From NCBI GenBank assembly GCA_017432685.1, contig JAFRIR010000021.1:1-64000 (forward strand): a stretch of DNA of 64,000 bases, given 5' to 3'. Shown here piece after piece: positions 8,781 to 23,615 of this stretch. This stretch comes from Flexilinea sp. (lineage in GTDB: Bacteria; Chloroflexota; Anaerolineae; Anaerolineales; Anaerolineaceae). Both the position numbers and the translations under genes were made by a program. The notes below the pieces were generated by a model that was not told the DNA's origin, ran no database searches, and saw only the letters and a list, made by a program, of their open reading frames with translations. The stretch's first letter is position 1, and each line of letters starts with the position of its first letter.

Positions 8781-8789
8781 CGAAAATTA

Positions 8790-8817: not shown

Positions 8818-8824
8818 GATAATT

Positions 8825-8891
8825 GAATACGCGGAGACTGGATTGCTGTTGTTGCAAAATCAATACAGTGGTCCAATCTCCGCGTATTTTG
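8825..8891. terminator. Bidirectional terminator between aldolase and phosphorylase genes
   Basis: A 17-bp arm AATACGCGGAGACTGGA pairs with TCCAATCTCCGCGTATT (one mismatch) around a 29-nt loop, with a TTTT tail on the plus strand. It lies between two convergent genes. Confidence 0.7.
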
Positions 8892-8894
8892 TGC

Positions 8895-9746
8895 TTATAG
8901 ATTCGGAAGAATCTCTTTGAGAATCGTGATGATCTTGGGGCCGATGGTCTTGGCAGCTTCCATCACTTCCTCGTGATTGGTCTGCACCTCACCGTTGTCG
9001 CTGTTTTTGTTAGTAATACCGGAAAAACCGAGAACACGCATACCGCAGTGACGAGCGATGATCACTTCCGGCACTGTGGACATACCCACCGCATCAACGC
9101 CCCATGATCGCAGCATTCTGACTTCAGCAGGGGTCTCAAAAGAAGGCCCGCTGAGCCAGACATAGATTCCCTCTTTCAGGTCGATGTTATGTTTGACTGC
9201 AGCAGCTTTTGCCATCCTGCCGTACTCACGGTCATATGCCTGAGACATATCCGGGAACCGGGTACCGAATTCTTCCATGTTCGGACCGCAGAGCGGGTTG
9301 TTGCCTGCCATCCCGGCCAGTGCGATATGATCCGTGATTAGCATGACGTCCCCGGGGTGGAAGAAAACGTTCACACCACCGGCGGCATTGGTTACGACAA
9401 GTGTTTTTACACCCAAAATCTTCATAACACGTACAGCAAAGGTGACTTCATGCAAGGAGTAACCTTCATAAAAATGGGTTCGTCCCTGCTGAACGATGAC
9501 ATTCCGCCCGCCAAGCTTCCCAATCACCAGCTGTCCTTTATGACCGAAAACCGTGGAAACCGGCCAGCCGGAAATATCTCTATATTTGATCACAACAGGA
9601 GCTTCACCGGGTTTGGCGCCTTCCACTTCATCAGCCAGTGGGCCAAGCCCTGACCCCAGCACCAGCCCGATTTCCGGTGTGATCGAAATTTTACTTTTGA
9701 TCTCATTTGCAGCATCCTGATACTCAGCAAAAGAATACGTACGCAT
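8895..9746 (-). CDS. Purine nucleoside phosphorylase (PunA/MtnP family)
   Basis: This 283-residue trimeric-type phosphorylase cleaves a purine nucleoside with phosphate to the base and a ribose 1-phosphate. Visible are the phosphate loop VLGSGLGPLAD near residue 30, GRTHFYEGY near 90, TNAAGG near 120, LSGPSFETPAE near 205, and GMSTVPEVIIARH near 228. The Asn of GITNKNSDN favours 6-oxopurines (inosine/guanosine type). That fits a pathway in which the neighbouring deaminase first makes inosine-type nucleosides. It is convergent to the aldolase gene, with only a shared terminator between. The start carries a strong AAGGAGAAGG site. Confidence 0.88.
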   Translation of the reverse strand: MRTYSFAEYQDAANEIKSKISITPEIGLVLGSGLGPLADEVEGAKPGEAPVVIKYRDISGWPVSTVFGHKGQLVIGKLGGRNVIVQQGRTHFYEGYSLHEVTFAVRVMKILGVKTLVVTNAAGGVNVFFHPGDVMLITDHIALAGMAGNNPLCGPNMEEFGTRFPDMSQAYDREYGRMAKAAAVKHNIDLKEGIYVWLSGPSFETPAEVRMLRSWGVDAVGMSTVPEVIIARHCGMRVLGFSGITNKNSDNGEVQTNHEEVMEAAKTIGPKIITILKEILPNL

Positions 9747-9850
9747 TACCTTCTCCTTGATGTAGTAAACTGACCTGAATTTAATTATACCTGATGATTG
9801 TCATAGTCAGGAACAAATCAGCATTTAAAATCCACTATTTTTTCCTCAAA

Positions 9851-9880
9851 TGTGACGCTTTCAATGCGTAATGTTATAAT
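9851..9880 (+). promoter_or_regulatory. Candidate promoter of the proline-rich surface protein gene
   Basis: TATAAT lies at 9875-9880 with TGTGAC at 9851-9856 (18-bp spacing). The -35 match is only partial. AAGGA precedes the ATG at 9906. Confidence 0.45.
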
Positions 9881-9905
9881 TAGCTGCAGATAAGGACGGT
9901 ATGAA

Positions 9906-11369
9906 ATGAACAATATGAATCCGAATTTCAATAATCAGCGCAATCCCGGCCAGTGGCAGCCTCCGGCTCCGCAGCGTCCGAATCAGAATTTTCCCCAATA
10001 CCATCCAAACTATCAGCAGCCTTCCCAACTTCCGCAGCCGCCCTCTCAGCCAAATCTACCGCTGACGGGAAAACAGCCGCCAAAAGACGAAAAACCCAAA
10101 AAAGAGAAAAAACAGCGTGCAATTCCGTTTTCTGAACTGTTTTCCCGCATATTTGTCGGTGCGCTGACACTGTTCATTGTCATTTACATGGGGTGGCTTT
10201 ACGCACCGCAAATCCGCAATTCAATGACCTTCTGGCCAACAAATACACCGACACCTGTCACACCCACACCCACAATTCCCGCAACAGCGACAGTAACGCC
10301 ACTGGCTACAAATACGCCGACACCCTCTCCCACACCGACACCAGGACCGATTTCAACTTATTGGATCGCCAGCGGCAATTCTCTCGATCCGGAAGTTCCC
10401 AACGCGCCGGAAGGTTTGGTGATCCTTTCCGCAAAAAACAGCGCAGAGGTGAATCCCTCACTGGACAGCATCTACTGGACCAGTTCAAGTCAAATTGTCC
10501 AGGACCTTGGCAGACTGACATCGAATTATGACAGTGAATGGTTCGCCACCGTGAACAATGGATCCATCCGTTATTACATGGATCAGCCGCTTAAAGAGGG
10601 GCTATACGAAATTTATGTAATGGACACTTATTACAGTTCCGGCGGTAATCTTGATTTTCTGGTTCAGGTCGGCAGCCAGCCGCTGACACCCATGACAGGC
10701 ACTTCGTCCGTCACCTTTATGACCAGTCAATATGACCCGCGTCAAAATTACGACACATGGCGCAGTTTGGGAATTTACTATATACCACAATCCCGGGATG
10801 TGTTGAACGTCTCCACCTCCTGGGGTTTTCGTGATGAATACAGCTATGTCGCTGCCGACAGGATCATGATCGTCCCGCGGAAGATAACGGATCTCGGTTT
10901 GCTCAATGCACTTCCGGCGTCAACAGGGACACGGTATATCATGGATGATACCCAGGCTTCCATCAGCGCGGGGAACAGCCAATTCAAAGAAACTGTCAGC
11001 ACAGCCTGGGACGATTCTTATCAGCTGATTATCAACCCGAAACAGAAATGCACCATTGAATATAACTCTCTCGAGCCCTGGCCGATTGGCTCCTACAGCA
11101 TTTATCTCTTTATTCCGGAAAGCAAAGGCGGACTGGACGCTGAAATTCAGGTGAAAACAGATAACACGATTTTGGAGACCGTCGCAGGGTCTGAGACAGT
11201 ACAGATGCACATTCCTGCCGGAGGAAGCTGGGTATTGATCGGACAGTATAACACCGACCGTTACTATGAACGCCCGGTCAAATTCAAGGTAACGATTACC
11301 GTCCCGGAAGGTCAGCAGGGTGAATACCCGATAGATGCTATAGCTTTTGTCCGAGATCCCTTTAACTAA
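9906..11369 (+). CDS. Membrane-anchored surface protein with Pro/Gln-rich tail and Thr-Pro linker
   Basis: I do not recognise a specific family. The 487-residue protein has a cytoplasmic Pro/Gln/Asn-rich segment (residues 1-75, ending in a Lys-rich stretch) and one membrane helix at about 80-100. A Thr-Pro-rich spacer follows at about 108-150, then an extracellular beta-rich region to the end. In that region two similar halves each contain a Y-x-I-x-V/F repeat (EGLYEIYVMDTYY and IGSYSIYLFIPES), which suggests duplicated golvesin/carbohydrate-binding-like sandwich domains. A cell-surface binding role is inferred. The gene is monocistronic, with its own -10 box and a strong terminator. Confidence 0.7.
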   Translation: MNNMNPNFNNQRNPGQWQPPAPQRPNQNFPQYHPNYQQPSQLPQPPSQPNLPLTGKQPPKDEKPKKEKKQRAIPFSELFSRIFVGALTLFIVIYMGWLYAPQIRNSMTFWPTNTPTPVTPTPTIPATATVTPLATNTPTPSPTPTPGPISTYWIASGNSLDPEVPNAPEGLVILSAKNSAEVNPSLDSIYWTSSSQIVQDLGRLTSNYDSEWFATVNNGSIRYYMDQPLKEGLYEIYVMDTYYSSGGNLDFLVQVGSQPLTPMTGTSSVTFMTSQYDPRQNYDTWRSLGIYYIPQSRDVLNVSTSWGFRDEYSYVAADRIMIVPRKITDLGLLNALPASTGTRYIMDDTQASISAGNSQFKETVSTAWDDSYQLIINPKQKCTIEYNSLEPWPIGSYSIYLFIPESKGGLDAEIQVKTDNTILETVAGSETVQMHIPAGGSWVLIGQYNTDRYYERPVKFKVTITVPEGQQGEYPIDAIAFVRDPFN

Positions 11370-11414
11370 AACAAAATGTTCGATGTGAAATGTTACAGTT
11401 GTTAAGTTATAGGT

Positions 11415-11451
11415 AAAAAAATACCCGTCATTATTTTGGCGGGTATTTTTT
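11415..11451. terminator. Bidirectional terminator between surface protein gene and larA
   Basis: The arms AAAAATACCCG and CGGGTATTTTT, extended by T-G, C-G and A-T pairs, flank a short loop. Runs of A and T on the two sides allow function on both strands between convergent genes. Confidence 0.85.
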
Positions 11452-11470
11452 ACTATTTTCATTTTACATT

Positions 11471-12718
11471 CTACTTTTCCGGTACGGGCAGTGTCGAGCC
11501 GCCGTAGGGCATAAGCAGGACAGAGGCGTTCCCGCCGTACTGTTTCAGCAGGTCATTGATAGTTTTTTGCAGGTCAGCCACGTAATTAAAATGTAATTTC
11601 TCCACAAAATCCTGCTGTAATTCGGTGTAAAGATAAATTTTTGCCCGCTTCATAACCATAGCAATGGCAGCGGCTTTGTGACCGCCAAGGACAAACTCCC
11701 GTTCGATATGAGGGATCATGTCCAGAGGATTTTCATGATTCAGCATCCAGTCCTCGAAATGCTTTTCACCCAGGCCTTCAATGCCCGAAGCGATCCAGAC
11801 GATGGAACCACCATCACGAATGGCTTTGCCGGCATTGTCAAGCGCCTTCTGAGCCTGATAAAGGTTCATATCCTTCGGGAAACCACCTGCCGAAACGATG
11901 ACGATATCCGCCTTTTTCGGGATCGGAAGGCTGTACATTTTATCCAGCAGCTTGCAGCCGGCACGATGAGCTTCAATCACGTCACCGGCAACACAATGCC
12001 GAATCTGCTTATGCTCATCTAATACGACATTGACGATGAATGCAACGGGGACAAACTCACGGACAGAATCAATGTCCGCACGTACCGGGTTGCCTTCTAT
12101 CTTCCCTGTAGTTGCCGCAGGATCCACCATGCGGCTGTGATTTTTCTGAATCGCTTCCCGGGTGGAAACGCCTGGCATGATAGCTTTCATACCGCCGCTG
12201 TAACCGGCAAAGTAATGGTACTCTATATTCCCCAGACAGACCACTTTATCCGCTTCCGCGACCGGTTTGAAAATGTCGACCGGTGTCCCATTGGCAGTGT
12301 AACCAAGGTGAACCATTTCCCCGTTGGAATCAAGGATCTGATAATTTTCAAAAACCTTTTCGCCGCAGAGCTTTTTCTTTTCCTCGTCGGTATGTCCGCG
12401 GTGACTGCCCAGCGCCAGGACGATCGAAACATCTTCATTCGGTACTCCGGCAGATTTGATCTCTTCCAAAACAGCAGGAAGAACTTTGTAGGATGGCATC
12501 GGACGGCTGATGTCGGAGGTCACGATGACTACCTTCTCTCCAGGTTTCACGATTCGGCTCAAACGCGGAGTTCCGATTGGATTTTCAAGCGCATTTTTTA
12601 TAGTTTTTTGCTCATCCAACGGAATATCCGGAAGATTTGCGTGAAGTACATCCATCACATTGTTATCCGGGATCTCAACTTCAACCTGTTCTTTGCCGAT
12701 CGCAAATATTTGTTTCAT
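11471..12718 (-). CDS. larA: LarA-family nickel-pincer racemase/epimerase (DUF2088)
   Basis: This 415-residue protein matches the lactate racemase LarA family, whose members interconvert 2-hydroxy acid stereoisomers using a Ni-pincer nucleotide bound to a lysine. The catalytic His is in GSHRGHT (about residue 105), a second His lies in EYHYFAGYSGG (about 170), and the pincer-attachment Lys is in GGMKAIMPG. Family members also include malate racemases and sugar-acid epimerases, so the substrate need not be lactate. It is the last gene of a minus-strand catabolic run. Its start overlaps the lacI stop by 4 bp. No larB, larC or larE genes lie in the window; cofactor synthesis must be encoded elsewhere. 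Confidence 0.85.
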   Translation of the reverse strand: MKQIFAIGKEQVEVEIPDNNVMDVLHANLPDIPLDEQKTIKNALENPIGTPRLSRIVKPGEKVVIVTSDISRPMPSYKVLPAVLEEIKSAGVPNEDVSIVLALGSHRGHTDEEKKKLCGEKVFENYQILDSNGEMVHLGYTANGTPVDIFKPVAEADKVVCLGNIEYHYFAGYSGGMKAIMPGVSTREAIQKNHSRMVDPAATTGKIEGNPVRADIDSVREFVPVAFIVNVVLDEHKQIRHCVAGDVIEAHRAGCKLLDKMYSLPIPKKADIVIVSAGGFPKDMNLYQAQKALDNAGKAIRDGGSIVWIASGIEGLGEKHFEDWMLNHENPLDMIPHIEREFVLGGHKAAAIAMVMKRAKIYLYTELQQDFVEKLHFNYVADLQKTINDLLKQYGGNASVLLMPYGGSTLPVPEK

Positions 12719-13704
12719 TTCCGTGTGCTCCTTCTTACCACTAATTTTGGTTCAAGCATAATATGATGCTCGGGAATATCTTTATCCTGAATCTGGCTGA
12801 TAAGCATTTCAGCTGCCAATTTTCCCATTTGATTTCTCGGTTGGGCAACCGTTGTCATCTGTATCTGCGGCAGTCCAGCCAACAGGATATCGTCAAAACC
12901 GATAACACCGACATCCTCAGGAATCTGCTTGTTATTCCCCATTAAATACTGTAAAACACCCAACGCGATCACATCATTCCCGCAGAAAATTCCGTCCACA
13001 TCCGGATATTTGCCATACAACTGTTTCGCCATCGTATATCCGCTGGAAAGAGTGAATCCGCCGTAAAGGATATGATCCGTATCGATTGATTTGCCAAGTT
13101 CCAGCAGTCGGTCACAGTATCCGCTGATCCGGATCCCATTGGACTGACTGTTTTCGGTACCGCCGATAAAAGCAAGGTGACGATAACCACATTCTACAAG
13201 ATGATCCGCAGCGATTCGTCCGCCCTTGTAATTGTCAATTTCTATGTATGATTCATTTTCGCCGGGAATACACGATATCAGAACGCTTGGCATAGACAAA
13301 CGTGAAAGGTCGAGCGGTTCCTTCCCGGCCGGTTTGTAAATGATGCCATCCACCCGCTGATTTTGCAGATGTTCCAGCTGTTTTGCTTCATTTTCCTCAT
13401 TCCAATGGGTATTGCACAAAATCGTCGTATAGCCGTTTTCGGAAGCGTATTCATCCACTGCATAGGCAATGTCAGCAAAAAAGGGATTGGATATATCGGG
13501 CAGCAGCAGGGCAATGGTATTGGTTTTGTTTGTTTTCAGACTGCGCGCGAGAATATTCGGCCTGTAGCCAAGCTCTTCTGCGGCAGCAAGAACCTTATCC
13601 CGGGTGACAGGACTCACACCGCTAAGGTGGTTCAGGGTTCGCGAAACAGTGGCATAAGAAACACCTGTGTATTCCGCTATGTCTTTGATCGTGACTTCAC
13701 CCAT
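12715..13704 (-). CDS. LacI-family transcriptional regulator
   Basis: This 329-residue repressor has an N-terminal LacI helix-turn-helix (TIKDIAEYTGVSYATVSRTL, residues 4-23) and hinge region (LGYRPNILARSLK). A periplasmic-binding-protein-like effector domain follows. It is embedded between the split transketolase and larA, coupled to larA by a 4-bp overlap. A LacI-type palindrome (central AAACGTTT) lies in front of iolG at the head of the run, so it probably controls the whole set. The inducer is unknown; an inositol- or sugar-acid-derived compound is a reasonable guess. Confidence 0.9.
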   Translation of the reverse strand: MGEVTIKDIAEYTGVSYATVSRTLNHLSGVSPVTRDKVLAAAEELGYRPNILARSLKTNKTNTIALLLPDISNPFFADIAYAVDEYASENGYTTILCNTHWNEENEAKQLEHLQNQRVDGIIYKPAGKEPLDLSRLSMPSVLISCIPGENESYIEIDNYKGGRIAADHLVECGYRHLAFIGGTENSQSNGIRISGYCDRLLELGKSIDTDHILYGGFTLSSGYTMAKQLYGKYPDVDGIFCGNDVIALGVLQYLMGNNKQIPEDVGVIGFDDILLAGLPQIQMTTVAQPRNQMGKLAAEMLISQIQDKDIPEHHIMLEPKLVVRRSTRK

Positions 13705-13727
13705 AATCTACATCAATTCCAACTGAT

Positions 13728-13757
13728 TGCAGTGCCCCGTTTTACCGGGACACTGCA
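13728..13757. other. Intra-operon hairpin between transketolase C gene and lacI
   Basis: The arms TGCAGTGCCCCG and CGGGACACTGCA pair with one mismatch around a 6-nt loop. No T-run follows on the minus strand, so it looks like an RNA-processing or stability hairpin rather than a full terminator. Confidence 0.55.
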
Positions 13758-13766
13758 CAATGTTAA

Positions 13767-14729
13767 TTATTTCCGGGCAATTGTCTTTTTGACTTCTTCG
13801 CAAACTTTTTCGGCGGTTAAGCCATATTCTTTTGCCAGAAAGTCCACTGTACCAACCTGACCGAAACGATCACGGATACCGACCATGGAAATGGGAGTCG
13901 GCTGTTTTTCACCAAGCAGTTCTGCAACAGCCGCGCCAAGTCCGCCGACAACGTTCCCATTTTCGGCAGTCACGACAGCGCCGCACTTCTTTGAATATTC
14001 AAGGACGACTGCTTCATCCAGCGGCTTGATACACCACATATCGATCACAGCTGCATCAATACCTTCTTTTGCCAGTTCTTCGGCAGCTTTCAGCGCTTCA
14101 GAAACCATATAACCGGCAGCAATGATAGCGACATCTTTGCCATCACGCAAAACGTTGGCCTTTCCCTGCTCGAAGGTGGAATCTTCTGAGTAAACAGCTA
14201 CACAGTTTTTGCGGCAAATTCGGACATATGTCAGCCCTTTGTTTTCCACCAGCTGCGGCAGAATGGAACCGAGCATGGCGCTGTCAGTGGTATCGATCAC
14301 GGTTGCTTCCGGAACGGCACGATACAGGCAGATATCTTCGAACGGCATATGGGTACCGCCATTATAGGCAGCGTTGATACCTGAATCGGAACCGATGATG
14401 ACGACATTGTTCTTTGCATAAGCAACAGACATGAAAGCCTGGTCGAAGACACGGCGGCCTGCAAAGGAACCGAAGGTGTGAGCGATCGGCTTCATCCCGG
14501 CCGCAGACATGCCGGCCGCGACACCGATCATGTTGGCTTCCTGGATACCGACTTCAACGATCTGGTTCGGGTAGTCTTTATCTAACCCGAAGGTACCGAT
14601 GGAATTCATGAGGTCTGCATCAAGATAGACGACTTTCGGATCGTTTTGGACCATTTTCTTGATCGTAGCGCCGAAAACATTCTTCCCGGCAGCTTTTTCT
14701 TTTTCACCGTTATAAATGCATTTGAACAT
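13767..14729 (-). CDS. Transketolase, C-terminal subunit (split transketolase)
   Basis: This 320-residue protein carries the pyrimidine-binding and C-terminal domains of transketolase. The ThDP-activating Glu is in VEVGIQEANMIG (about residue 55), and a HTFGSFAGRR segment follows near residue 85. It must pair with the upstream N-terminal subunit to form the active ThDP enzyme that transfers two-carbon ketol units. The start at 14729 (MFKCIYNG) is chosen because AGAGG lies 7 bp upstream; the frame extends further upstream but overlaps the previous gene. The gap between the two subunit genes is 10 bp. Split transketolases are common in anaerobes, where some serve dedicated catabolic routes. Confidence 0.9.
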   Translation of the reverse strand: MFKCIYNGEKEKAAGKNVFGATIKKMVQNDPKVVYLDADLMNSIGTFGLDKDYPNQIVEVGIQEANMIGVAAGMSAAGMKPIAHTFGSFAGRRVFDQAFMSVAYAKNNVVIIGSDSGINAAYNGGTHMPFEDICLYRAVPEATVIDTTDSAMLGSILPQLVENKGLTYVRICRKNCVAVYSEDSTFEQGKANVLRDGKDVAIIAAGYMVSEALKAAEELAKEGIDAAVIDMWCIKPLDEAVVLEYSKKCGAVVTAENGNVVGGLGAAVAELLGEKQPTPISMVGIRDRFGQVGTVDFLAKEYGLTAEKVCEEVKKTIARK

Positions 14730-14739
14730 CTGGCACCTC

Positions 14740-15558
14740 TTATTCCATTTCAGCCTTGAGCTCTGCGATATAACCATCAGCTTCATCACCAACATTCAGG
14801 TGGTGATTCAGCTTTGTATCTTCAATCGCTTTGACACCCGCACCCTTGACAGTGTCAAGAATGATCATTGCAGGTTTGTCACCCTGATTCGCTTTGGCAT
14901 CATTGACTGCTTCAACGATTTTGTCCGGATCAGATCCGTCAATGCGGAGTGTATACCAGCCAAAAGCCTTGAATTTTTCGTCAACAGGTTCAATGCTGCA
15001 AATTTCGGAAGTATATCCATCCAGCTGGCGTTTGTTATTGTCAAGGAAGGCAATGAAATTATTCAGTTTGTGCTGAGGAGCAAACAAAGCCATTTCCCAA
15101 ACCTGGCCTTCCTGGCTTTCACCATCACCAAGGATCAGGTAAACACGGCAATCTTTGTTCTGAGCTTTCAGACCCAATGCCAAACCGGCAGCAGTGGAAG
15201 CGCCCTGTCCCAGAGAACCGGTCGTCATATCGATCCCGGGAGTGAGGTTCTTGTCACAATGGCTCGGCAGGTGAGTACCATTGGCATTCAGCGTTTTGAG
15301 CATTTCCATGGGGAAATATCCCATGATGGCCAGTGTCGCGTAAAGCGCCGGACCGGCATGACCCTTGGACATGACCAAACGATCCCGATCTTCCCACTGG
15401 GGATTTTTCGGGTCAAATTTCATGATTTCGCCGTAAAGCGCGGCCAGACAATCCGTAATGGAAAGAGCTCCGCCGATATGACCGAAACCACGGGCTTTGA
15501 ACTCTTCCAATTGCGCAATGCGGATCTCTGTTGCCAATTTCTTTAATCGAGATTGCAT
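14740..15558 (-). CDS. Transketolase, N-terminal subunit (split transketolase)
   Basis: This 272-residue protein holds the ThDP/metal-binding half. HIGGALSITDCLAALYG lies near residue 26, SKGHAGPALYATLA near 65, the TGSLGQG loop near 110, and the GDGESQEGQVWE...LDNN thiamine motif near residues 145-173. It precedes the C-terminal half by 10 bp. Upstream, towards pgk, is a 103-bp gap with a perfect hairpin. In this operon the enzyme may act on a ketose from the iol-like steps rather than in the ordinary pentose phosphate pathway; that is inference from context. Confidence 0.9.
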   Translation of the reverse strand: MQSRLKKLATEIRIAQLEEFKARGFGHIGGALSITDCLAALYGEIMKFDPKNPQWEDRDRLVMSKGHAGPALYATLAIMGYFPMEMLKTLNANGTHLPSHCDKNLTPGIDMTTGSLGQGASTAAGLALGLKAQNKDCRVYLILGDGESQEGQVWEMALFAPQHKLNNFIAFLDNNKRQLDGYTSEICSIEPVDEKFKAFGWYTLRIDGSDPDKIVEAVNDAKANQGDKPAMIILDTVKGAGVKAIEDTKLNHHLNVGDEADGYIAELKAEME

Positions 15559-15605
15559 TTTTCTTTTCCTTTCGGCAAACTTTTCTGTTCACCTCTTAAC
15601 TGACT

Positions 15606-15635
15606 GATTGCATTGCTGTTCGAAGCAATGCAATC
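15606..15635. other. Perfect intra-operon hairpin between pgk and transketolase N gene
   Basis: The arms GATTGCATTGCT and AGCAATGCAATC are perfectly complementary over 12 bp around a 6-nt loop. No clear T-run lies on the minus strand, so a processing or stability role is more likely than termination. Confidence 0.6.
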
Positions 15636-15661
15636 GTCATTTTTATACAAAATTCTTCCTT

Positions 15662-16906
15662 CTATTTGCCCTTATCACGTTCGTAGGCTTTTTCCATTGC
15701 CGTGATCAGCGGCATCTTCTTCCCGGACATAAAGCGAACCATAGCGCCGCCACCGGTACAGACATAGCTGATATCGTTGAGATCAATGAACTTCGTTGCG
15801 GAGCTGATGGTATCTCCACCACCGATGACAGAATAAGCAGGGCTTTGCGCGATGGCAGTCCAGACAGCTTTTGTGCCATATTCAAACATCGGGTTTTCAT
15901 AGACACCGGCAGGACCATTCGCAAAAACAGTCTTTGCCTTATCCAGGATCTCTTTGTATGCGGCAACGGTCTTGTGACCGATATCCGGGTAAAGACTGTC
16001 GACCGGCATATCTGCGACATCGATTTCCACCCGTTCACCATCTTTTTCGTAGGCGACATCAACGGGCATAAAGATCTTTCCGGGGAATTCCGCCAGGAAT
16101 TTCTTCGAATCGTCCACAAACCCGAGCAAGTCCTTATCTTTCAGGAACTTCAGCGTCTTCTCACCGATGTTGACACCGGAGGCATAAAGCATCACCAGCC
16201 CCGTGACACCCGTGGTCAGGATGGCGTCCGCGGTTCCGTTTTCCAGAACCGGGCGCATCATTCCATAGGCATCCGAGATCTTGGCGCCGCCCAGCACGAA
16301 GACGCAAGGCTTTTCCGCATTGTGCAGCACGTTGTAGAGCGCTTCATATTCCTTGAAGAGCAACGGACCTGCAGCAGTTGGCAGCAATTCCTGAAATGCA
16401 ACCATGGAAGGCGAATTGCGGTGCGCGGCAGAGAAAGCTTCATTGACATAAAAGTCAAACAGCGGAGCCAGTTTCCTGACTTCCCAGCAGTGAGTGTATT
16501 CTTCAGCTGTCTGTTTGACATCTTTTTCAAATGTCGAGACCTCCTCTGTTAAATAGCGAAGATTCCCCAGTATGACCACTTCACCGGCTTTCAGCGTTTC
16601 CACACGGGCAATCGCCGCGGGACCGCAGACATCATCAATATATTCAACGGGCTGGTTCAGCAGAGAAGAAAGCCGCTCAGCGTGTTCATGCATATCGACC
16701 AGGTTCTGATAATCCAGCGTATCACCCTGATGGGCAATGATCGCAATCGCAGCACCTTTCTCGAGCAATTCTTTGATAACCGGGATCGTTTTCACGATCC
16801 GGTTATCATTCACGATTTTCTTTGTGACGGGATCGACCGGAGAGTTGATGTCCGGGCGGAGAAGAACTTTCTTTCCCCGCAGATCGATCCCCTCAAGGGA
16901 ACGCAT
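15662..16906 (-). CDS. Archaeal-type phosphoglycerate kinase homologue
   Basis: The protein of about 414 residues follows archaeal rather than bacterial PGK patterns (RPDINSPVDP near the N-terminus, AHQG, VNEAFSAAHR, GGAKISD, NGPAGVYE, IGGGDTISSATKF, TGGGA). PGK makes ATP from 1,3-bisphosphoglycerate. Two departures are visible. The Arg that normally follows HxG (HQGRP) is replaced by Asp (HQGDT), and the second Lys of GAKxxDK is Ala (GAKISDAY). Both positions lie in substrate/nucleotide regions, so a different acyl phosphate is possible. ATG 16906 has GGAAG 5 bp upstream; an alternative ATG at 16918 overlaps the gap gene and lacks a ribosome site. Confidence 0.82.
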   Translation of the reverse strand: MRSLEGIDLRGKKVLLRPDINSPVDPVTKKIVNDNRIVKTIPVIKELLEKGAAIAIIAHQGDTLDYQNLVDMHEHAERLSSLLNQPVEYIDDVCGPAAIARVETLKAGEVVILGNLRYLTEEVSTFEKDVKQTAEEYTHCWEVRKLAPLFDFYVNEAFSAAHRNSPSMVAFQELLPTAAGPLLFKEYEALYNVLHNAEKPCVFVLGGAKISDAYGMMRPVLENGTADAILTTGVTGLVMLYASGVNIGEKTLKFLKDKDLLGFVDDSKKFLAEFPGKIFMPVDVAYEKDGERVEIDVADMPVDSLYPDIGHKTVAAYKEILDKAKTVFANGPAGVYENPMFEYGTKAVWTAIAQSPAYSVIGGGDTISSATKFIDLNDISYVCTGGGAMVRFMSGKKMPLITAMEKAYERDKGK

Positions 16907-16908
16907 CT

Positions 16909-17937
16909 TTACTTCCATTTGCCCAGTCCCAGATACTTGTTGGTTTCGGCAACGGCCTTCAGGCGATCGGTCTCCATGTTGCAGGCAGCGCGGATACCGT
17001 CCATGGTTTCCGGAATGGTGACGGATTCCTGAGGGATGTTGATAGCATACATAATGTCATCGCCGGATTCGACGATGCTGTCAGCCCACAGGCCGATCTC
17101 GTACATATCTCCACGGCGGTTGCCAAGGTCACGGGCATAGCGGAAGAAGGATGCATTGCCCTTGAAGCCTTCATCGATGGTGACGACACGAATGCGGTCA
17201 TGGGTCAGGAATGCATCGAGAGCCATCTGCTTTGTGATCTTCTGTTTGCCTTTGGCAACGACGGTGATGATGTGACCGTGAGTGACAGGAGTGTGAACAA
17301 GGATACCGGTTGCTTCGATGTGCGGCATGATGGTCATGAGGTCAACAGCCTGATGGGACGGAGCTTTGTCCATCTGCAGGGCATTGGTCAAACCGCGGTG
17401 ATAGTCACCGGGATCAGCAACGCGGCGGATGATGGTGATGGCAACTTTTTCAATGCCATAAGCACGATCCAGGCAGTCAACGGAGCGGATCAAACCGGTG
17501 GTGTTGCAGGAGGTCAGTTTCAGATAATTCTGGCCGACACCCTTTTCATAGTTGGCATAACCATGGAAGAACACATCCGCGACGGAATTCTTTTCGCCGC
17601 CCTGGAAGATGGCTTTGGTGTTATGCTTGACATAAAGTTCCTTGTTTTTTGCACCGACACCGCCGGGGGAGGAGTCCAGCATGATATCGACCTTGTCGAT
17701 CAATTCTTCAAATGTTCCGGAAACGGGGATACCGCAGGCATCAAACTGAGCTTTGTCTGCTCCATCGACCAGATAGAGGTCATAGGGCATACCCTGTTCT
17801 TTCAGTGCGCGAATGGAAAGGGTTGGGGCGAGGTCCGCAACACCGACCAGTTCCATGTCGCCCTGTCGGGCGACGCCGTCAGCCAAACGCTGACCGATAA
17901 CGCCGTAACCGGCGACACCAACTTTAATCTTACTCAT
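16909..17937 (-). CDS. Archaeal-type (type II) glyceraldehyde-3-phosphate dehydrogenase homologue
   Basis: This protein of about 342 residues has the archaeal GAPDH signature: KVGVAGYGVIGQRLADGV at the N-terminus, GAKNKELY near 98, FQGGEKNSVADV near 115, and the catalytic Cys in SCNTTGL near residue 140. RRVADP follows near 165. It oxidises an aldehyde to an acyl phosphate with NAD(P). Bacterial-type GAPDH (SCTTNCL) is clearly different, so this gene and the pgk homologue probably came together by transfer from archaea or an archaeal-like donor. The start at 17937 has AAGGAG with 8-bp spacing; the ATG two codons earlier is too close. Pgk follows immediately or overlaps. Confidence 0.87.
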   Translation of the reverse strand: MSKIKVGVAGYGVIGQRLADGVARQGDMELVGVADLAPTLSIRALKEQGMPYDLYLVDGADKAQFDACGIPVSGTFEELIDKVDIMLDSSPGGVGAKNKELYVKHNTKAIFQGGEKNSVADVFFHGYANYEKGVGQNYLKLTSCNTTGLIRSVDCLDRAYGIEKVAITIIRRVADPGDYHRGLTNALQMDKAPSHQAVDLMTIMPHIEATGILVHTPVTHGHIITVVAKGKQKITKQMALDAFLTHDRIRVVTIDEGFKGNASFFRYARDLGNRRGDMYEIGLWADSIVESGDDIMYAINIPQESVTIPETMDGIRAACNMETDRLKAVAETNKYLGLGKWK

Positions 17938-17958
17938 ACTCATTGCTCCTTATAAAAA

Positions 17959-18858
17959 TTACAGACCAGCAACTTCTTTGATATATTTCCGGGCTTTCAC
18001 TGCATATTCAAACGGATTGGCTTTCGCCGGATCCTGTTCAGCTTCAACCAGGACATAACCTTCATAATTGTTTTCAGCAAGGACTTCGAAGATAGAGGTG
18101 AAGTCTACATCACCATCGCCCGGAACCGTAAAGACACCGGCACGGACCGCATCCAGGAAGCTCATGTTCTGCTTCTTGACTTCTTCATAGACCTTCAGGC
18201 GCAGATCCTTGAGGTGGACGTGCTTAATGCGCTTGATATATTTCTTCAGGACCGGGAGCGGATCAATGCCGGCAAAGGAAAGGTGACCGGAATCGAACAG
18301 CAGGTACACGAGTTCCGGATCGGTCTCATCCATCAGGCGGTCGATCTCTTCAACAGTCTGGACACCGGTGCCCATATGGTGATGGATCGTCAGGTACATG
18401 CCCTTTTCACGTGCAAGCGCGCCCATCTCATTGAAACCCTTACAGACGGTCTTCCACTGCTCTTCGGTATAAACCGGTTTGTCAGGACCGAGGATCGGCA
18501 CATCGAGTTTCCCCTGGATGGAGTTGCCCTGTTCGGAAGCACCGATGATCTTCGCGCCGAGGTAATTCAGTTTATCGCGGTGAGCGATGAAGTTCTGAAT
18601 GGTCACTTCATAGGGTTCACTGGTCAGCAGGGAGGAGAACCAGGCATTGCAGACTTGAAGCCCGCGGACATCCAGCTTGTGCTTCAGGACTTCGGGATCC
18701 TTCGGATATTTGTTACCGATTTCCGTGCCTTTGAATCCGGCCAGCGCCATTTCACTGACACACTGTTCAAAGGTGTTTTCAGCGCCGAGATCCGGCATGT
18801 CATCATTTGTCCAACCGATAGGGGCAATCCCCAACTTTACTTTATTCGGATCAAGCAT
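17959..18858 (-). CDS. iolE: Inosose dehydratase-like protein (IolE family)
   Basis: This 299-residue TIM-barrel protein of the xylose-isomerase-like superfamily matches myo-inosose-2 dehydratase, which dehydrates 2-keto-myo-inositol to the trihydroxycyclohexanedione. APIGWTNDDMPDLG at residues 12-25 and GTEIGNKYP near 45 are IolE hallmarks. The metal site residues are in TIHHHMGT (about 157), LFDSGHLSFAG (about 187), KHVHLKD (about 210) and VEAEQDP near the end. The gene lies 21 bp after iolD and 21 bp before the gap homologue, in one operon. Confidence 0.88.
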   Translation of the reverse strand: MLDPNKVKLGIAPIGWTNDDMPDLGAENTFEQCVSEMALAGFKGTEIGNKYPKDPEVLKHKLDVRGLQVCNAWFSSLLTSEPYEVTIQNFIAHRDKLNYLGAKIIGASEQGNSIQGKLDVPILGPDKPVYTEEQWKTVCKGFNEMGALAREKGMYLTIHHHMGTGVQTVEEIDRLMDETDPELVYLLFDSGHLSFAGIDPLPVLKKYIKRIKHVHLKDLRLKVYEEVKKQNMSFLDAVRAGVFTVPGDGDVDFTSIFEVLAENNYEGYVLVEAEQDPAKANPFEYAVKARKYIKEVAGL

Positions 18859-18879
18859 TATTTACCTCTATACGAAATT

Positions 18880-20748
18880 TTAGTAATCACGTGCTTCAGC
18901 GATGTGCTTCTGCATGTCTTTCCAACATTCAACGACCTTCGGGTCATTGGCAACTTCAGCGACGCCAACACGCCACCAGCTTTCGTAACCCGGGGTCATA
19001 CTGCCGTGAGCAACCTTCATATCAAAGACGCAGACACGGTTTTCTTTCTTAGAATCTTCAAGCGCGGCTTTCAGTTCTTCTGCGGTATGAATGGTATACC
19101 CCTTTGCGCCATACCCCTCACCGATCTTTGCAATATCCATCGGGACAATCGGACCATCGAGCTGGCCGGTTTCTTCATTGCGGTAGCGGAAGACTGTACC
19201 AAAAGTCTTTGTCCCTTGATTGTTCTGCAGGTTTTCAATGCAGCCCCAGCCTGAATTATCAAAGACCATGATGTTGATCTTGATGCCTTCCTGAATCGCT
19301 GTATAAAGCTCACTGTGTGACATGATGAAGGAACCATCACCAAGGAAGGTATAAACTTCGCTTTCCGGGCATGCCATCTTGACACCGACAGCCGCATTGA
19401 CTTCGTAACCCATGCAGGAGAAGCCATATTCCATATGATAGGTGCAGGGAAGTCCTGGACGATAGAGACGCTGCATATCACCCGGGAGTGACCCGGCAGA
19501 ACCGACGCCGATATCTTTGGGATCCATGAATTTGTTGATTTCACCCAGCGCTCTTGTCTGCTGCAGAACGCCATCAACATCCGGCTTGGAATACCAGTCA
19601 TCAACGATGGCATCCCATTCTTTTTTGGCTTCAGCATATTCCGTTGTGTAGGCAGTCTTGTAACCGCGCTTCTTCAGTTCAGCGCCAATTGCTTCCATTG
19701 AAACTTTGGCATCACCAATGATCGGTTCTGCATCCATCTTGATTGCATCGAAAGCAGCAACGTTGATGGTCAGGATCTTTACATCCGGATTCCGGAATGC
19801 CCACTTGGAACTGGTTGTGAAGTCAGTCATACGGGAACCGACAGAGATGATCAGGTCCGCATCTTTTGCTATCACATTGGCAGCCTTACCGCCGGTTACG
19901 CCCAGGCCACCGAGGTTCAGCGGATGACGCCAGTCGATAACGCCCTTCCCGGCCTGCGTTTCACCGAAGGGGATGTTGAAATCTTCAGCAAACTGTCGGA
20001 AGGTTTCCCAGGCTTCACTGTAACGGACACCACCACCGCAGATCATCAGCGGTTTCTTTGCGGCTGCGATCATGTCAGCTGCTCGTTTCACCTGAGAATC
20101 ATTGATGCCGCGGCGATCCATGTGCCAGACACGCTTGCGGAAGAAGTATTCCGGATAATCATATGCTTCACCTTCAACGTCTTGCGGCATGCAGACACAG
20201 ACAGCACCGGTATCAGCCGGGTCAGTCAGCACACGCATAGCATGGATCATGGCTGTCATGACCTGCTCCGGGCGTTCAATCTTGTCCCAGTACCGGCAAA
20301 CACCTTTGAAAGCTTCGTTGACAGTCTTTGCATAGCTGTCATAGAACTCAACCTGCTGCAGAACCGGATCCGGCTGGCGGGTCGCAAAGGTATCACCCGG
20401 GAGAACAAGCAGCGGAATACGGTTTGCACTGGCAGTCCCACAGGCAGTAACCATGTTCATAGCGCCGGGACCGATTGAAGAGACGCAGGGAATGATGCGG
20501 CGGCGGTTGCTCTGTTTTGCGAACCCCATCGCCACATGAGCCATTGCCTGTTCATTATGACCCTGATAGAAGCGGAGGTTATGGCCGCCCTGTTCCAATG
20601 CCTGGCCGACACCGACCACACATCCATGACCGAAGATCCCGATGATCCCGTCAACAAATTTTTCTTCTTTTCCGTCAAATTCAACGTATTGATTATCAAG
20701 GAATTTTACGATTGCCTGTGCCATCGTGATACGAATTCGATTGGCCAT
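18880..20748 (-). CDS. iolD: Trihydroxycyclohexane-1,2-dione hydrolase-like ThDP enzyme (IolD family)
   Basis: This 622-residue ThDP-dependent enzyme is of IolD length and organisation. The catalytic Glu is in YQGHNEQAMAHVAMGFA (about residue 66), SSIGPGAMNMVTA is near 92, a central FAD/DHS-like domain follows, and the C-terminal ThDP motif GDGSFIMSHSEL ends in VFDNSGWGC near residue 490. IolD hydrolytically opens the ring of 3D-trihydroxycyclohexane-1,2-dione to 5-deoxy-D-glucuronate. It is separated from iolG by a MITE-like copy and a strong hairpin, and followed at 21 bp by iolE. ATG has a GGAGGG site upstream. Confidence 0.88.
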   Translation of the reverse strand: MANRIRITMAQAIVKFLDNQYVEFDGKEEKFVDGIIGIFGHGCVVGVGQALEQGGHNLRFYQGHNEQAMAHVAMGFAKQSNRRRIIPCVSSIGPGAMNMVTACGTASANRIPLLVLPGDTFATRQPDPVLQQVEFYDSYAKTVNEAFKGVCRYWDKIERPEQVMTAMIHAMRVLTDPADTGAVCVCMPQDVEGEAYDYPEYFFRKRVWHMDRRGINDSQVKRAADMIAAAKKPLMICGGGVRYSEAWETFRQFAEDFNIPFGETQAGKGVIDWRHPLNLGGLGVTGGKAANVIAKDADLIISVGSRMTDFTTSSKWAFRNPDVKILTINVAAFDAIKMDAEPIIGDAKVSMEAIGAELKKRGYKTAYTTEYAEAKKEWDAIVDDWYSKPDVDGVLQQTRALGEINKFMDPKDIGVGSAGSLPGDMQRLYRPGLPCTYHMEYGFSCMGYEVNAAVGVKMACPESEVYTFLGDGSFIMSHSELYTAIQEGIKINIMVFDNSGWGCIENLQNNQGTKTFGTVFRYRNEETGQLDGPIVPMDIAKIGEGYGAKGYTIHTAEELKAALEDSKKENRVCVFDMKVAHGSMTPGYESWWRVGVAEVANDPKVVECWKDMQKHIAEARDY

Positions 20749-20792
20749 TTATTTCCCTCCGATTTTTTTATTTTTTTACATGAAACCATTAA

Positions 20793-20922
20793 GGGCACCT
20801 CTAAAAACATCAATTTTTCTCTGTCCCAAGGAGATTCAGAGAATTTTTTCTCTGAATCTCCTTGGGAGGTTTCCGGGGGCTGCCGCCCCCATACCCCCGC
20901 CCGGGAGTTTTTAGAGGTTCCC
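20793..20922. mobile_element. MITE-like repeat element, copy C (130 bp, inverted, between iolG and iolD)
   Basis: The terminal repeats are GGGCACCTCTAAAAAC at the left and GTTTTTAGAGGTTCCC at the right. The internal palindrome arm CCCAAGGAGATTCAGAGAA has a perfect partner, and the C-rich core follows, in the opposite orientation to copies A, B and F. TTAA occurs at both ends. Confidence 0.8.
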
Positions 20923-20925
20923 TTA

Positions 20926-20958
20926 AGTGAAAGGTGAAAACAATTTTCACCTTTCACT
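20926..20958. other. Perfect 15-bp hairpin downstream of iolG
   Basis: AGTGAAAGGTGAAAA pairs perfectly with TTTTCACCTTTCACT across a CAA loop, 18 bp past the iolG stop. The minus-strand tail has no U-run beyond TTAAG, so it may attenuate or process the transcript between iolG and iolD. Confidence 0.6.
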
Positions 20959-20976
20959 CTTCAGTTTTCAGCTTAT

Positions 20977-21990
20977 TTATTTGATTTCCGACAACTTCAC
21001 CGGGCGATGTTCTTTCATGGACAGATTTGCAGCCTGGGCGATCTTGATCGGGGCAAGACCATCCTGGATGCCGACCGGGACATCAGTTCCATTCTGAATC
21101 GCTTTGATGAATTCACGGACTTCATCACCGAATGACTGCATGTAGCGTTCCAGGAAGAAGAACAGCGGTTTGTCTTTTGAGACACATTCTTTGGTGCTGA
21201 CAGTGACATTGGTTTCCGTATCGTTATCGGCAGCGGCAGCACCCTTGGTGCCGAAGACTTCCACGCGCTGGTCATAGCCATAAACAGCCTGACGGCAGTT
21301 GTCGATGACACCAATGGCGCCGTTTTCGAATTTCAGGGTGATGATGGCGGTATCAATATCACCGGCTTCGCCGATGGCGGGGTCAACAGTCACTGCACCG
21401 ACTGCGTAAACTTCTTCAACCGGGCTGCCGGCCTGGTAGGCAGCCATATCGAAATCATGGATGGTCATATCCAGGAACATACCGCCGGATGCGGCAGCAT
21501 ATTCGGCTGACGGCGGTTCCGGATCACGGGAAGTGATCTTAACGATCTGGATCTCACCCAGGTCACCGTTTTTTGCCAGTTCATGGATCTTGCGGAAGTT
21601 ATGGTCAAAGCGGCGGTTGAAACCGATCTGCATTTTGACGCCTGCTTCTTTGACAACTCTTTCGGTTTCAAGGATCTTCGCGACAGAAGTGTCGATCGGT
21701 TTTTCACAGAAGATGTGCTTTCCGGCTTTAGCAGCTTCCATAGCGATGTCAGCGTGGGTATTTGTCGGAGAACAAACGAAGACAGCCTGGATCGTGGGGT
21801 CTTCAAGGATCTTGTGATAATCGTCATAGTAATTCGGAATACCGAATTCTTCTGCAGCTTTCTTTGCGGCTTCAACGAATTTATCGGAAATCGCAACCAG
21901 TTCAGCTTCGGGAATGTTGTTTGTCAGAGACTTGGAATGAACACGACCGATTCGGCCAGCGCCGATGATACCAACACGAACTTTTTCCAT
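20977..21990 (-). CDS. iolG: Gfo/Idh/MocA oxidoreductase, inositol 2-dehydrogenase-like (IolG)
   Basis: This 337-residue NAD-dependent dehydrogenase has the N-terminal Rossmann motif GIIGAGRIGRVH (residues 8-19). EKPIDTS near 97 holds the family's catalytic Lys, and GGMFLDMTIHDFDMA near 168 holds the catalytic Asp/His pair. This pattern is typical of inositol 2-dehydrogenases, which oxidise myo-inositol (or a chiro/scyllo isomer) to an inosose, the substrate for IolE. It is the first gene of the minus-strand run. The ribosome site AAGGAG precedes the ATG, with a LacI-type operator upstream. Related sugar dehydrogenases in this superfamily cannot be excluded. Confidence 0.85.
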   Translation of the reverse strand: MEKVRVGIIGAGRIGRVHSKSLTNNIPEAELVAISDKFVEAAKKAAEEFGIPNYYDDYHKILEDPTIQAVFVCSPTNTHADIAMEAAKAGKHIFCEKPIDTSVAKILETERVVKEAGVKMQIGFNRRFDHNFRKIHELAKNGDLGEIQIVKITSRDPEPPSAEYAAASGGMFLDMTIHDFDMAAYQAGSPVEEVYAVGAVTVDPAIGEAGDIDTAIITLKFENGAIGVIDNCRQAVYGYDQRVEVFGTKGAAAADNDTETNVTVSTKECVSKDKPLFFFLERYMQSFGDEVREFIKAIQNGTDVPVGIQDGLAPIKIAQAANLSMKEHRPVKLSEIK

Positions 21991-22020: not shown

Positions 22021-22038
22021 TTTGCAAACGTTTACTAT
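22021..22038 (-). promoter_or_regulatory. LacI-type operator upstream of iolG
   Basis: TTTGCAAACGTTTACTAT contains the palindromic core AAACGTTT with a central CG and flanking GC/AC, the form typical of LacI-family operators. It lies 31 bp upstream of the iolG ATG and overlaps AT-rich candidate -10 boxes on the minus strand, where binding would block transcription. A small hairpin GCAAAG/CTTTGC follows in the leader. Confidence 0.6.
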
Positions 22039-22404: not shown

Positions 22405-22451
22405 AAAGCAAGAGGACAAATCTCCAATCGGTTGATTTGTCCTCTTGCTTT
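22405..22451. terminator. Bidirectional terminator with 18-bp perfect stem
   Basis: AAAGCAAGAGGACAAATC pairs perfectly with GATTTGTCCTCTTGCTTT around an 11-nt loop. It serves the DUF2007 gene (+) and the convergent operon (-), whose last stop codon touches it. Confidence 0.9.
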
Positions 22452-23035
22452 CAGAAATCGAACAGGCTCAGCTGCTGAACGCTGTTCTCTTCTTTCTTCT
22501 TCCGCTTGCCCTTTCCTGAAGATTTCGCGGGTCTCTGTTTTCCCTCCGCTTTTGTTCCGTTTATCTTCTCATTAATCAAAAGCTCTATTTTTCTGTACGT
22601 TCCTTCATTCATTTCGCTGACATAACGGATCTCATAGGGAACGGGAGTTTGCTGATAGGAATAAGCGGGCTGCAAACCGAAATCTTCCCTGATGATCAAT
22701 ACTTCACATTCCGCATCATCTGTGCTGATCATGAAGCCGTTTTCAGTTTCCGAGATTTGAGCCTCAACGCCTGAAGCTTTTAATTCAATATCCACGAATG
22801 GCAGAAAATTCCGATACGACTCGTCATTCTGCAATTTCTGATCAAGAAAACTCAGGTAAAGTTTATTTTTTGTTAAATTATCAAATGACGGCAGATAAAA
22901 ATGCTGTTTCTGAAACCCGCTGCGGCTCAACCCCGACAGGACGATTTCTCTTAAGGCAAGATATCCGGCTTCTTTTGGGGTCTTTTTTGGGCTATTTTGT
23001 ATTGTCTTTGAAAGCTGCAGTATAATTGCGTCCAT
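22451..23035 (-). CDS. AbiEii-like partner protein lacking nucleotidyltransferase motifs
   Basis: This 194-residue protein sits where the type IV toxin AbiEii normally follows AbiEi, and its start overlaps that gene by 44 bp. Residues 25-48 (ALREIVLSGLSRSGF...FY) resemble the N-terminal helix of AbiEii, and FLPFVDIELKASGVE resembles the later region. The catalytic block that should lie between them (FYGGTxLRI, then SEDLDFSL) is replaced by unrelated sequence of similar length (FYLPSFDNLTK...). The C-terminus is Lys-rich and ends in a QLSLFDF tail. It may therefore be an inactive relic or a repurposed protein. The relationship is inferred by eye and is not certain. Confidence 0.5.
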   Translation of the reverse strand: MDAIILQLSKTIQNSPKKTPKEAGYLALREIVLSGLSRSGFQKQHFYLPSFDNLTKNKLYLSFLDQKLQNDESYRNFLPFVDIELKASGVEAQISETENGFMISTDDAECEVLIIREDFGLQPAYSYQQTPVPYEIRYVSEMNEGTYRKIELLINEKINGTKAEGKQRPAKSSGKGKRKKKEENSVQQLSLFDF

Positions 23036-23615
23036 ATTTCTTTCTCAAAAATGATTTCAAAAGGTGCAGGTTCCGGCACCCGTAAAGATCTGCAATACTG
23101 AAGATAACTGCCGGATCGAGCCTGAAAATTTTCCGCTTTCCAATACCGATCTCACCAAACAGTAAATCTTTCAATTCGTTCAGGTTCGAAGCAGGAACAG
23201 AATTATACAAAGTATCACACAGCGCCTTTTCCGGTGAAGCCATGATGAAACAGTAACCGTTTTCGTTATGCAAAACCAGCTCCTTTGGATAAGCATCCTT
23301 CGGGATATCCCTGTAGGTAAATGTACCAAACATGGTTTCATGGAGCTTTTCCTTCCGTTTTCCGTAAGCAGCGCAGGTTATCGGCCAATCTTTTTTTGTT
23401 ATCAGTCCGTAATAGCTGAGCGCGTATTCAAAGGATATATAGGACGGTCCGTAAATGCTGCCGGCGAGATAAATTGCAGGTGTTTTCGGATCATCTTCAT
23501 ATATCCCGCGTATGATCGGAAAAAGGTCACCGTTTTCCACCATTCTCCCGATTTTCGCTTTGGGGTTAACATACCCTTTCAGCTCGGAAATTAAGATAGC
23601 AGTCGTTTTGATCAT
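22992..23615 (-). CDS. AbiEi-like transcriptional regulator/antitoxin
   Basis: This 207-residue protein has the AbiEi pattern: an N-terminal winged-helix region (residues 5-42, KIGRMVENGDLFPIIRGIYE), then AGSIYGPSYISFEYALSYYGLI near residue 51. The C-terminal domain includes ASPEKALCDTLY near 127. AbiEi proteins repress their own operon and counter AbiEii nucleotidyltransferase toxins. It lies 3 bp after the acidic membrane protein gene and overlaps the partner gene downstream, so all three are probably co-transcribed, an unusual arrangement for a toxin-antitoxin pair. Confidence 0.75.
   Translation of the reverse strand: MIKTTAILISELKGYVNPKAKIGRMVENGDLFPIIRGIYEDDPKTPAIYLAGSIYGPSYISFEYALSYYGLITKKDWPITCAAYGKRKEKLHETMFGTFTYRDIPKDAYPKELVLHNENGYCFIMASPEKALCDTLYNSVPASNLNELKDLLFGEIGIGKRKIFRLDPAVIFSIADLYGCRNLHLLKSFLRKKYGRNYTAAFKDNTK

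Follow-up and report, generated by a model that had tools for sequence, protein, structure and literature searches.

The question raised by this locus is how an operon carrying the first genes of inositol catabolism could complete the pathway when genes for its usual later steps seem to be replaced by others. The window, the whole stretch of 64,000 nucleotides analyzed here, belongs to a Flexilinea sp. metagenome-assembled genome (MAG) of 3.97 Mb in 151 contigs which is 87% complete. Nine open reading frames (ORFs) were confirmed at positions 11471–21990, all on the minus strand, encoding IolG, IolD, IolE, a type II glyceraldehyde-3-phosphate dehydrogenase (GAPDH)-like protein, a phosphoglycerate kinase (PGK)-like protein, two transketolase halves, a LacI-type regulator and LarA. 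The family names which a first-pass annotation had given these proteins held, with NCBIfam or Pfam cut-offs being exceeded. The Bacillus-type iol pathway consists of IolG, IolE, IolD, IolB, IolC, IolJ and IolA, and gives malonic semialdehyde and dihydroxyacetone phosphate. None of the nine proteins of the cluster matches IolB, IolC, IolJ or an aldolase family in NCBIfam or Pfam, with no search for iolJ having been made in the rest of the genome. Judging from sequence, it is considered probable, with good confidence, that inositol is broken down by the products of this cluster along a pathway whose upper half is the usual one and whose lower half is new and runs through malate.

The substrates and the direction of flow proposed here are those which would follow from the genes, their linkage, their family assignments and the residues changed in them. 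IolG, IolE and IolD, together with an IolB encoded elsewhere in the genome, would convert myo-inositol to 2-deoxy-5-keto-D-gluconate (DKG), the product of IolB. Viewed from its CH2OH end, DKG is a 2-ketose with the D-threo configuration at C3/C4 of D-xylulose and D-fructose, which is the normal donor geometry for transketolase. The split transketolase would take a two-carbon ketol from DKG and give it to glyceraldehyde-3-phosphate to form xylulose-5-phosphate, replacing both the phosphorylation by IolC and the aldol cleavage by IolJ. The four-carbon remainder would be (R)-3-hydroxy-4-oxobutanoate (malic semialdehyde), a compound with the same aldehyde and (R)-hydroxyl as D-glyceraldehyde-3-phosphate, having CH2-COO- in place of CH2-O-phosphate. 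It is proposed that the GAPDH-like enzyme converts malic semialdehyde and phosphate to malyl phosphate, that the PGK-like enzyme uses this and ADP to form ATP and D-malate, and that LarA turns D-malate into L-malate, which would proceed to fumarate, or to pyruvate by way of malic enzyme where the cluster has one. A racemase would be required because the stereochemistry, derived by hand, yields D-malate. In energetic terms, no ATP would be spent on IolC and one would be gained. The first-pass annotation had put forward ketol transfer, then oxidation by an ATP-conserving GAPDH/PGK pair, then LarA acting on a 2-hydroxy acid, and this outline is supported by the conservation of gene content, the presence of housekeeping copies, the lack of an IolC over the cut-off and the LarA score described below. 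It had named neither the substrate nor the 2-hydroxy acid, for which DKG and malate can be proposed.

With regard to the upper half of the pathway, IolG, IolE and IolD all exceed the cut-offs of the curated myo-inositol equivalog models of NCBIfam. It had also been claimed that iolB, iolC and iolJ are missing here and that all three are replaced. The first part stands for the nine proteins, but two genes of the KduI/IolB family were found in the genome, namely a KduI and, on contig C16, an iolB-like gene which scores 161.6 bits with PF04962 and so exceeds the cut-off of that model. The protein of this iolB-like gene is 72% identical to that of the iolB lying between iolD and gap2 (the gene of the GAPDH-like protein) at loci L100 and L105 of rumen Lachnospiraceae. 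Moreover, the operon of a congener (L033) has the order iolG-iolB-iolD-iolE-gap2-pgk-tkN-tkC-lacI-larA, and iolB is present in 31 of the 37 loci with iolD and iolE described below, while the chemistry proposed here itself needs IolB, so that its replacement is not upheld. It looks as if only the IolC/IolJ half has been replaced. A KduI/IolB-family gene was present in 11 of 13 further genomes, the two exceptions being the genomes of L119 and L085, where the stretches examined contain no iolD. No IolC was found over the 300-bit cut-off in any of 27 genomes (best score 199.2), with the control passing in 3 of 14.

To place the cluster among its relatives, public genomes were scanned by alignment with the GAPDH-like protein and the best 80 of 484 relatives were kept, these being the nearest homologs and not a sample. 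Identity floors of at least 40% for the transketolase halves and at least 45% for iolG and for larA were applied, and malic enzyme was sought by tblastn with the protein of L119 (E ≤ 1e-15). Since many of the loci end at contig edges, counts of absent genes are upper bounds. Both iolD and iolE occur in 37 of the 80 loci, spanning Chloroflexota, Bacillota and Spirochaetota as labelled in the respective records. Among these 37, pgk was found in 36, iolB in 31 (as noted), both transketolase halves in 25, iolG in 23 and larA in 24, with weaker larA matches in four more. As clusters of these genes recur in many other genomes, the grouping of the nine genes is more than chance. The order of genes varies widely with the content being retained, which argues more for a shared function than for one inherited block; of the conserved gene order which the first-pass annotation had thought worth looking for, the content is kept and the order is shuffled.

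A survey of 396 genomes of the same class (Anaerolineae) detected a type II GAPDH match in 27, nine of which, including the present genome, have a member of the operon clade (68–100% identity). The matches outside the clade show 34–39% identity, except for one in genome G040, which is a second, partial copy with 61% identity. In all eight class relatives the clade GAPDH gene (68–80% identical to that of the window) adjoins a PGK gene; no PGK was found in the 15 kb examined around the partial copy of G040, which is situated at the edge of a contig. As a control, nine of the 22 matches at 34–39% (the nine being at 34–37%) were examined, and none had PGK, transketolase, LarA or iol neighbors. GAPDH genes 98–99% identical to that of the window were found in records of uncultured Chloroflexi and of a goat-abomasum Anaerolineaceae, loci L052, L053 and L054 included. 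The 37 plasmid records matched by the GAPDH query all lie below 60% identity and gave no lead.

The GAPDH-like protein exceeds the type II family model, and its SCNTTG motif, which we take to be the catalytic motif of type II GAPDH, is invariant in nine of nine aligned sequences. Its relatives in the structure database are four solved GAPDHs, presumably all archaeal, while the best solved relative of the PGK-like protein is 2cun (E 3e-89), which is also assumed to be archaeal, followed by 1vpe (E 2.8e-56). The label "archaeal-type" given earlier to both proteins therefore suits the GAPDH and applies loosely to the PGK. Compared with the four solved GAPDHs, those of the clusters show clade-specific changes in 26 columns, to which no roles in substrate contact are assigned, two alignments of the clade disagreeing around the second histidine motif. 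In canonical PGKs, the H-x-G-R/K motif includes a basic residue, R in 1vpe and 1php and K in 2cun, which presumably binds the 3-phosphate. This position is never basic in the cluster PGKs; of the 82 sequences obtained from those of 88 loci that have a PGK match, 57 have S and 25 have D. Residues D23, N25, R40, R121, H166 and R167 are kept in all cluster PGKs covering them (80–82 sequences).

The retention of these six residues, the membership of both proteins in glycolytic families and the finding that the transketolase is the only one detected in the genome would fit with the pair being extra glycolytic copies, acting on glyceraldehyde-3-phosphate and 3-phosphoglycerate and handling the triose and pentose phosphates formed from inositol. 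Such a role appears unlikely, and is ranked lower because housekeeping copies exist, namely a type I GAPDH and a PGK (PF00162, 544.2 bits) that lie less than 3 kb apart on contig C114, so that the operon pair is not the sole copy; because the basic PGK residue is lost in all 82 sequences; and because the pair keeps company with malate racemase and malic enzyme, even in a stretch without inositol genes (L119). According to the first-pass annotation, its proposal would fall if iolB, iolC and iolJ lay elsewhere in the genome and if the GAPDH, PGK and transketolase genes were sole copies. A second GAPDH, a second PGK and no IolC over the cut-off were found, the split transketolase being the exception as the only one found.

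The two transketolase halves together contain the thiamine pyrophosphate (TPP), pyrimidine and C-terminal domains according to Pfam, and the nearest solved relative of the C half is the C chain of the split transketolase of Carboxydothermus (6yaj). Two residues of the substrate channel differ from the canonical ones. These are H and D in the Carboxydothermus sequence and in a sequence which we take to be human transketolase, corresponding presumably to yeast H469 and D477 and assumed to contact the substrate phosphate, and are D and N in the C half of the window. Among the cluster transketolases at or above 34.5% identity, the first position is D in 40 of 44 and Y in four (L034, L036, L038 and L040), and the second is N in all 44; at a floor of 35%, the figures are D in 40 and Y in three of 43, and N in 43 of 43. 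Second transketolase paralogs, for which 18 stretches were read, retain H and D in genomes G408, G411, G416 and G420, and carry other residues at these positions in G253, G403, G405 and G414. Between one and four Transketolase_N matches were found in each of 30 further genomes.

One pointer to malate is LarA, which scores above the threshold set by the curated model for LarAH6 malate racemases and has Mar2 (6d6z, E 2.8e-116) as its best solved relative. The GHK motif, which is tied to malate racemization in the available part of PMC7583248, is kept in 47 of 47 LarA proteins covering it at 40% identity or more. Malic enzyme was detected in 33 of the 80 loci and in 17 of the 37 with iolD and iolE, and the copies tested (n = 3) carry both PF00390 and PF03949. 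At locus L119 of Acetobacterium wieringae (5269–14780), genes for an E1 alpha, an E1 beta, an E2 and a disulphide-oxidoreductase (E3-like) are followed by those for the GAPDH-like and PGK-like proteins, malic enzyme (with PF00390 and PF03949) and LarA. The E1 alpha and E2 score under the best NCBIfam cut-offs, and none of the inositol genes sought were found in the 21 kb examined. Since the pair adjoins malic enzyme and LarA in this organism as well, it goes with malate despite a different upstream chemistry. L115 and L124 have clusters of this kind too, with E1/E2/E3-like genes, the pair, malic enzyme and LarA but none of the inositol genes sought, and in all three clusters some other substrate may possibly be cut to malic semialdehyde.

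The aldehyde oxidized by the GAPDH-like enzyme could conceivably arise earlier in the pathway, before the transketolase, being 5-deoxyglucuronate or another C5–C6 aldehyde acid from which the PGK-like enzyme would make a deoxy-aldarate to be epimerized by LarA. The product of IolD, 5-deoxyglucuronate, does bear a free aldehyde. It is also the case that more than one 2-hydroxy acid can serve as a substrate for LarA enzymes, which use several, as stated in the available part of PMC11770544. However, the ketose made by IolB, encoded in 31 of the 37 loci, no longer has that aldehyde, the LarA score lies above a malate-specific cut-off, and malic enzyme clusters with LarA, all of which make such an early oxidation very improbable.

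Variation in the genes accompanying the pair also bears on the nature of the substrate. Of the eight class relatives, five have an IolO-like gene next to the GAPDH/PGK pair (L034, L036, L038, L039 and L040). At L036, an IolN gene (over its cut-off) and IolM-like and IolO-like genes (under theirs) lie beside the GAPDH/PGK/transketolase set, along with a gene of the tartrate/isopropylmalate-dehydrogenase family scoring below its NCBIfam cut-offs, while L038 has IolN and IolO homologs together with the split transketolase, GAPDH-like and PGK-like genes. For these variants a parallel route via D-tagaturonate-like acids to tartrate is possible, though at lower confidence. Extended to the module as a whole, this would mean that it serves a different cyclitol or a hexuronate, that the iolB, iolD and iolE homologs act on analogs and that tartrate or a different C4 diacid is formed. 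The presence of IolN, IolM-like or IolO-like genes instead at L036 and L038, and in part at L085 and L109, is in line with this, as is the epimerization of tartrate by malate racemases (PMC11770544, available part). Against this, IolG, IolD and IolE of the window score over the myo-inositol equivalog cut-offs and none of the 37 loci with iolD and iolE has IolN or IolO matches, and the idea is considered very improbable. Subunits of E1 type adjoin the pair at L035, L037, L082, L098, L115, L119 and L124, which suggests another way to cut a ketose or acyloin. It is regarded as fairly likely that the cluster represents a widespread, kinase-free anaerobic inositol route in which the cleavage of DKG by transketolase supplies two new activities, with the GAPDH-like protein being a malic-semialdehyde dehydrogenase of the phosphorylating kind and the PGK-like protein a malyl-phosphate kinase that forms ATP, and that the pair also operates alongside other enzymes which open rings or cleave acyloins.

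The arrangement of the genes (Table 1) looks like that of one operon for most of the set, because the intergenic gaps from iolD through gap2 are short and there are overlaps between gap2 and pgk and between lacI and larA. The C half of the transketolase probably starts at the ATG at 14729 and not at 14795, since the frame as listed runs into the N half.

Table 1. Coordinates of the predicted features of the cluster and the evidence for each.
Feature	Position	Strand	Evidence or remark
Putative LacI-type operator	22022..22037		Palindrome matching TTGTAAACGTTTACAA, 2 mismatches, upstream of iolG
iolG, inositol 2-dehydrogenase	20977..21990	-	TIGR04380 469.9 bits, cut-off 355
iolG-iolD gap with interspersed-repeat copy	20749..20976		iolB occupies this position in congener
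iolD, THcHDO hydrolase giving 5-deoxy-D-glucuronate	18880..20748	-	TIGR04377 897.3 bits, cut-off 715
iolE, inosose dehydratase	17959..18858	-	TIGR04379 406.6 bits, cut-off 290
Type II GAPDH-like; proposed phosphorylating malic-semialdehyde dehydrogenase	16909..17943	-	TIGR01546 302.7 bits, cut-off 232.9
PGK-like; proposed malyl-phosphate:ADP phosphotransferase	15662..16918	-	PF00162 352.3 bits
Transketolase N half (TPP domain)	14740..15558	-	PF00456 (Transketolase_N) 170.5 bits
Transketolase C half; start probably 14729	13767..14795 as listed	-	PF02779 Transket_pyr 97.2 bits, PF02780 Transketolase_C 116.1 bits
LacI-family regulator	12715..13704	-	PF00356 and PF13377; LacI 66.2 bits
LarA homolog, nickel-pincer malate racemase (LarAH6/Mar2 group)	11471..12718	-	NF052593 549.3 bits, cut-off 500

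The operator palindrome has a single match in the window at up to two mismatches, where 0.03 would be expected. Of 11 sources tested, a site within two mismatches was also found upstream of iolG in L033, L053, L054, L083 and L113; no site at up to three mismatches was found in L052, which begins inside iolD, in L088, which begins inside iolG, or in L114. Four other sites within two mismatches are present in the genome (C10:15697, C25:12381, C61:15299 and C91:29564), those on C10 and C61 adjoining ABC permease genes (PF00528) which could belong to an inositol transporter. The palindrome was discarded as a marker of a regulon.

An interspersed repeat with long inverted arms is present in many copies, among them those in the iolG-iolD gap, near 7963–8099, at 52652–52846 and at 5388–5447 of the window, and at 2981–3164 and 4008–4138 of L050. 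One copy thus occupies the position of iolB in the congener, and on C16 there are copies on both sides of the lone iolB-like gene, as if the repeats may have taken part in moving or replacing iolB.

In the neighborhood of the cluster, two small adjacent genes lie just upstream of the operon (22451–23615). A reading of these by eye as an AbiE-type toxin-antitoxin pair was dropped, as neither has a Pfam match. On the other side, region 4078–9746 groups genes for an adenosylhomocysteinase, a deaminase-like protein related to N-ethylammeline chlorohydrolase and 5'-deoxyadenosine deaminase (scores under the cut-offs), an MtnA-like isomerase, a class II aldolase-like protein and a purine nucleoside phosphorylase, a combination presumably resembling the salvage route for 5'-deoxyadenosine and methylthioadenosine.

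A number of observations weigh against the malate route as proposed here. With regard to malate itself, no malic enzyme was found by tblastn in the operon of the window, nine of the 37 loci with iolD and iolE have neither malic enzyme nor a LarA of at least 45% identity, and the malic enzymes score under the cut-off of the best NCBIfam model, which was built to describe a longer protein. A search of the MAG, which is 87% complete, yielded no LarC. It is present in 18 of 19 relatives, among them the genomes of L052, L053 and L054, with their GAPDH genes of 98–99% identity, and the gap is probably one of assembly. With regard to the link with inositol, 43 of the 80 loci have no iolD, and though a number of these are truncated, others represent genuine variants, meaning that inositol is not the only context in which the GAPDH/PGK pair occurs; E1/E2-type genes occur in the iolD-less L115, L119, L124, L082 and L098, and at L086 and L089 only GAPDH and PGK of the genes sought were found with 10 kb on each side. 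The iolB-like gene on C16 reaches just 87.5 bits against the TIGR04378 cut-off of 205, and the 12 kb around it hold no operator site at up to three mismatches. At that same level the operator motif is no commoner across the genome than a control pattern (25 versus 27). With regard to the transketolase, its N half is the only PF00456 match (E ≤ 0.001) in the genome, for which reason the enzyme may serve central metabolism as well. The D/N residues are also found in a further split-transketolase group (L156, L158, L159 and L165, from genomes G407, G412, G421 and G422), 41–44% identical to that of the window. Finally, in 12 of the 37 loci the stretch examined does not include a split transketolase. 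This contradiction is weakened for L102 and L104, where a D/N-type copy lies elsewhere in the same genomes, but not for the other ten; the genomes of L107 and L118, which are clusters of this kind, have transketolase N halves.

Should the malate route be correct, anaerobes of the gut, rumen and termite gut would have a way of fermenting inositol, a compound set free from plant phytate, that avoids the ATP cost of IolC and yields an extra ATP through the GAPDH/PGK-like pair. The best-known ATP-forming step of glycolysis would gain two activities, with a copy of that step running on a carboxylate, and this may be one reason why malate racemases are common. The gene names "type II GAPDH" and "phosphoglycerate kinase" would then be wrong for this clade. 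No account of a transketolase/malate route for inositol was seen in the titles and abstract starts of the open-access PubMed Central literature, among the matches listed.

Compared with the Bacillus-type iol pathway, the cluster shares IolG, IolE and IolD over the curated cut-offs; the congener has IolB in its operon, and the genome studied here has an iolB-like gene outside the cluster. It differs in having a transketolase, GAPDH-like and PGK-like proteins and LarA in place of a kinase and an aldolase, and in its proposed product, malate. The inositol pathway of the Thermotoga type consists of IolG, IolM, IolN and IolO, and resembles the variants at L036 and L038, where such genes accompany the GAPDH/PGK/transketolase set or parts of it; the window has no IolM, IolN or IolO, ring opening there being assigned to IolE and IolD. 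A pathway through malyl phosphate has also been engineered, in which it is reportedly the other carboxyl of malate that is phosphorylated. This synthetic route to 2,4-dihydroxybutyrate shares malyl phosphate or malate semialdehyde as intermediates, but starts from malate according to the available parts of PMC5481828 and PMC12104201, whereas the route proposed here would be natural and lead toward malate. LarAH6/Mar2 is similar to LarA of the window in terms of model score, structural relationship and GHK motif, though the words inositol, transketolase and phosphoglycerate kinase do not occur in the main text of PMC7583248. No sulfoquinovose isomerase or sulfonate family is among the matches of the nine proteins, the coverage of such models in the libraries being unchecked. 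The system nearest in logic is the sulfo-TK pathway, in which, as described in the available part of PMC9594981, the transketolase SqwGH acts on sulfofructose. In both cases a dedicated transketolase would cut an acid-bearing ketose and pass the ketol to glyceraldehyde-3-phosphate; in the cluster described here, however, the proposed substrate is a carboxylate derived from inositol, and the C4 aldehyde would be oxidized with a gain of ATP instead of being isomerized and cut again.

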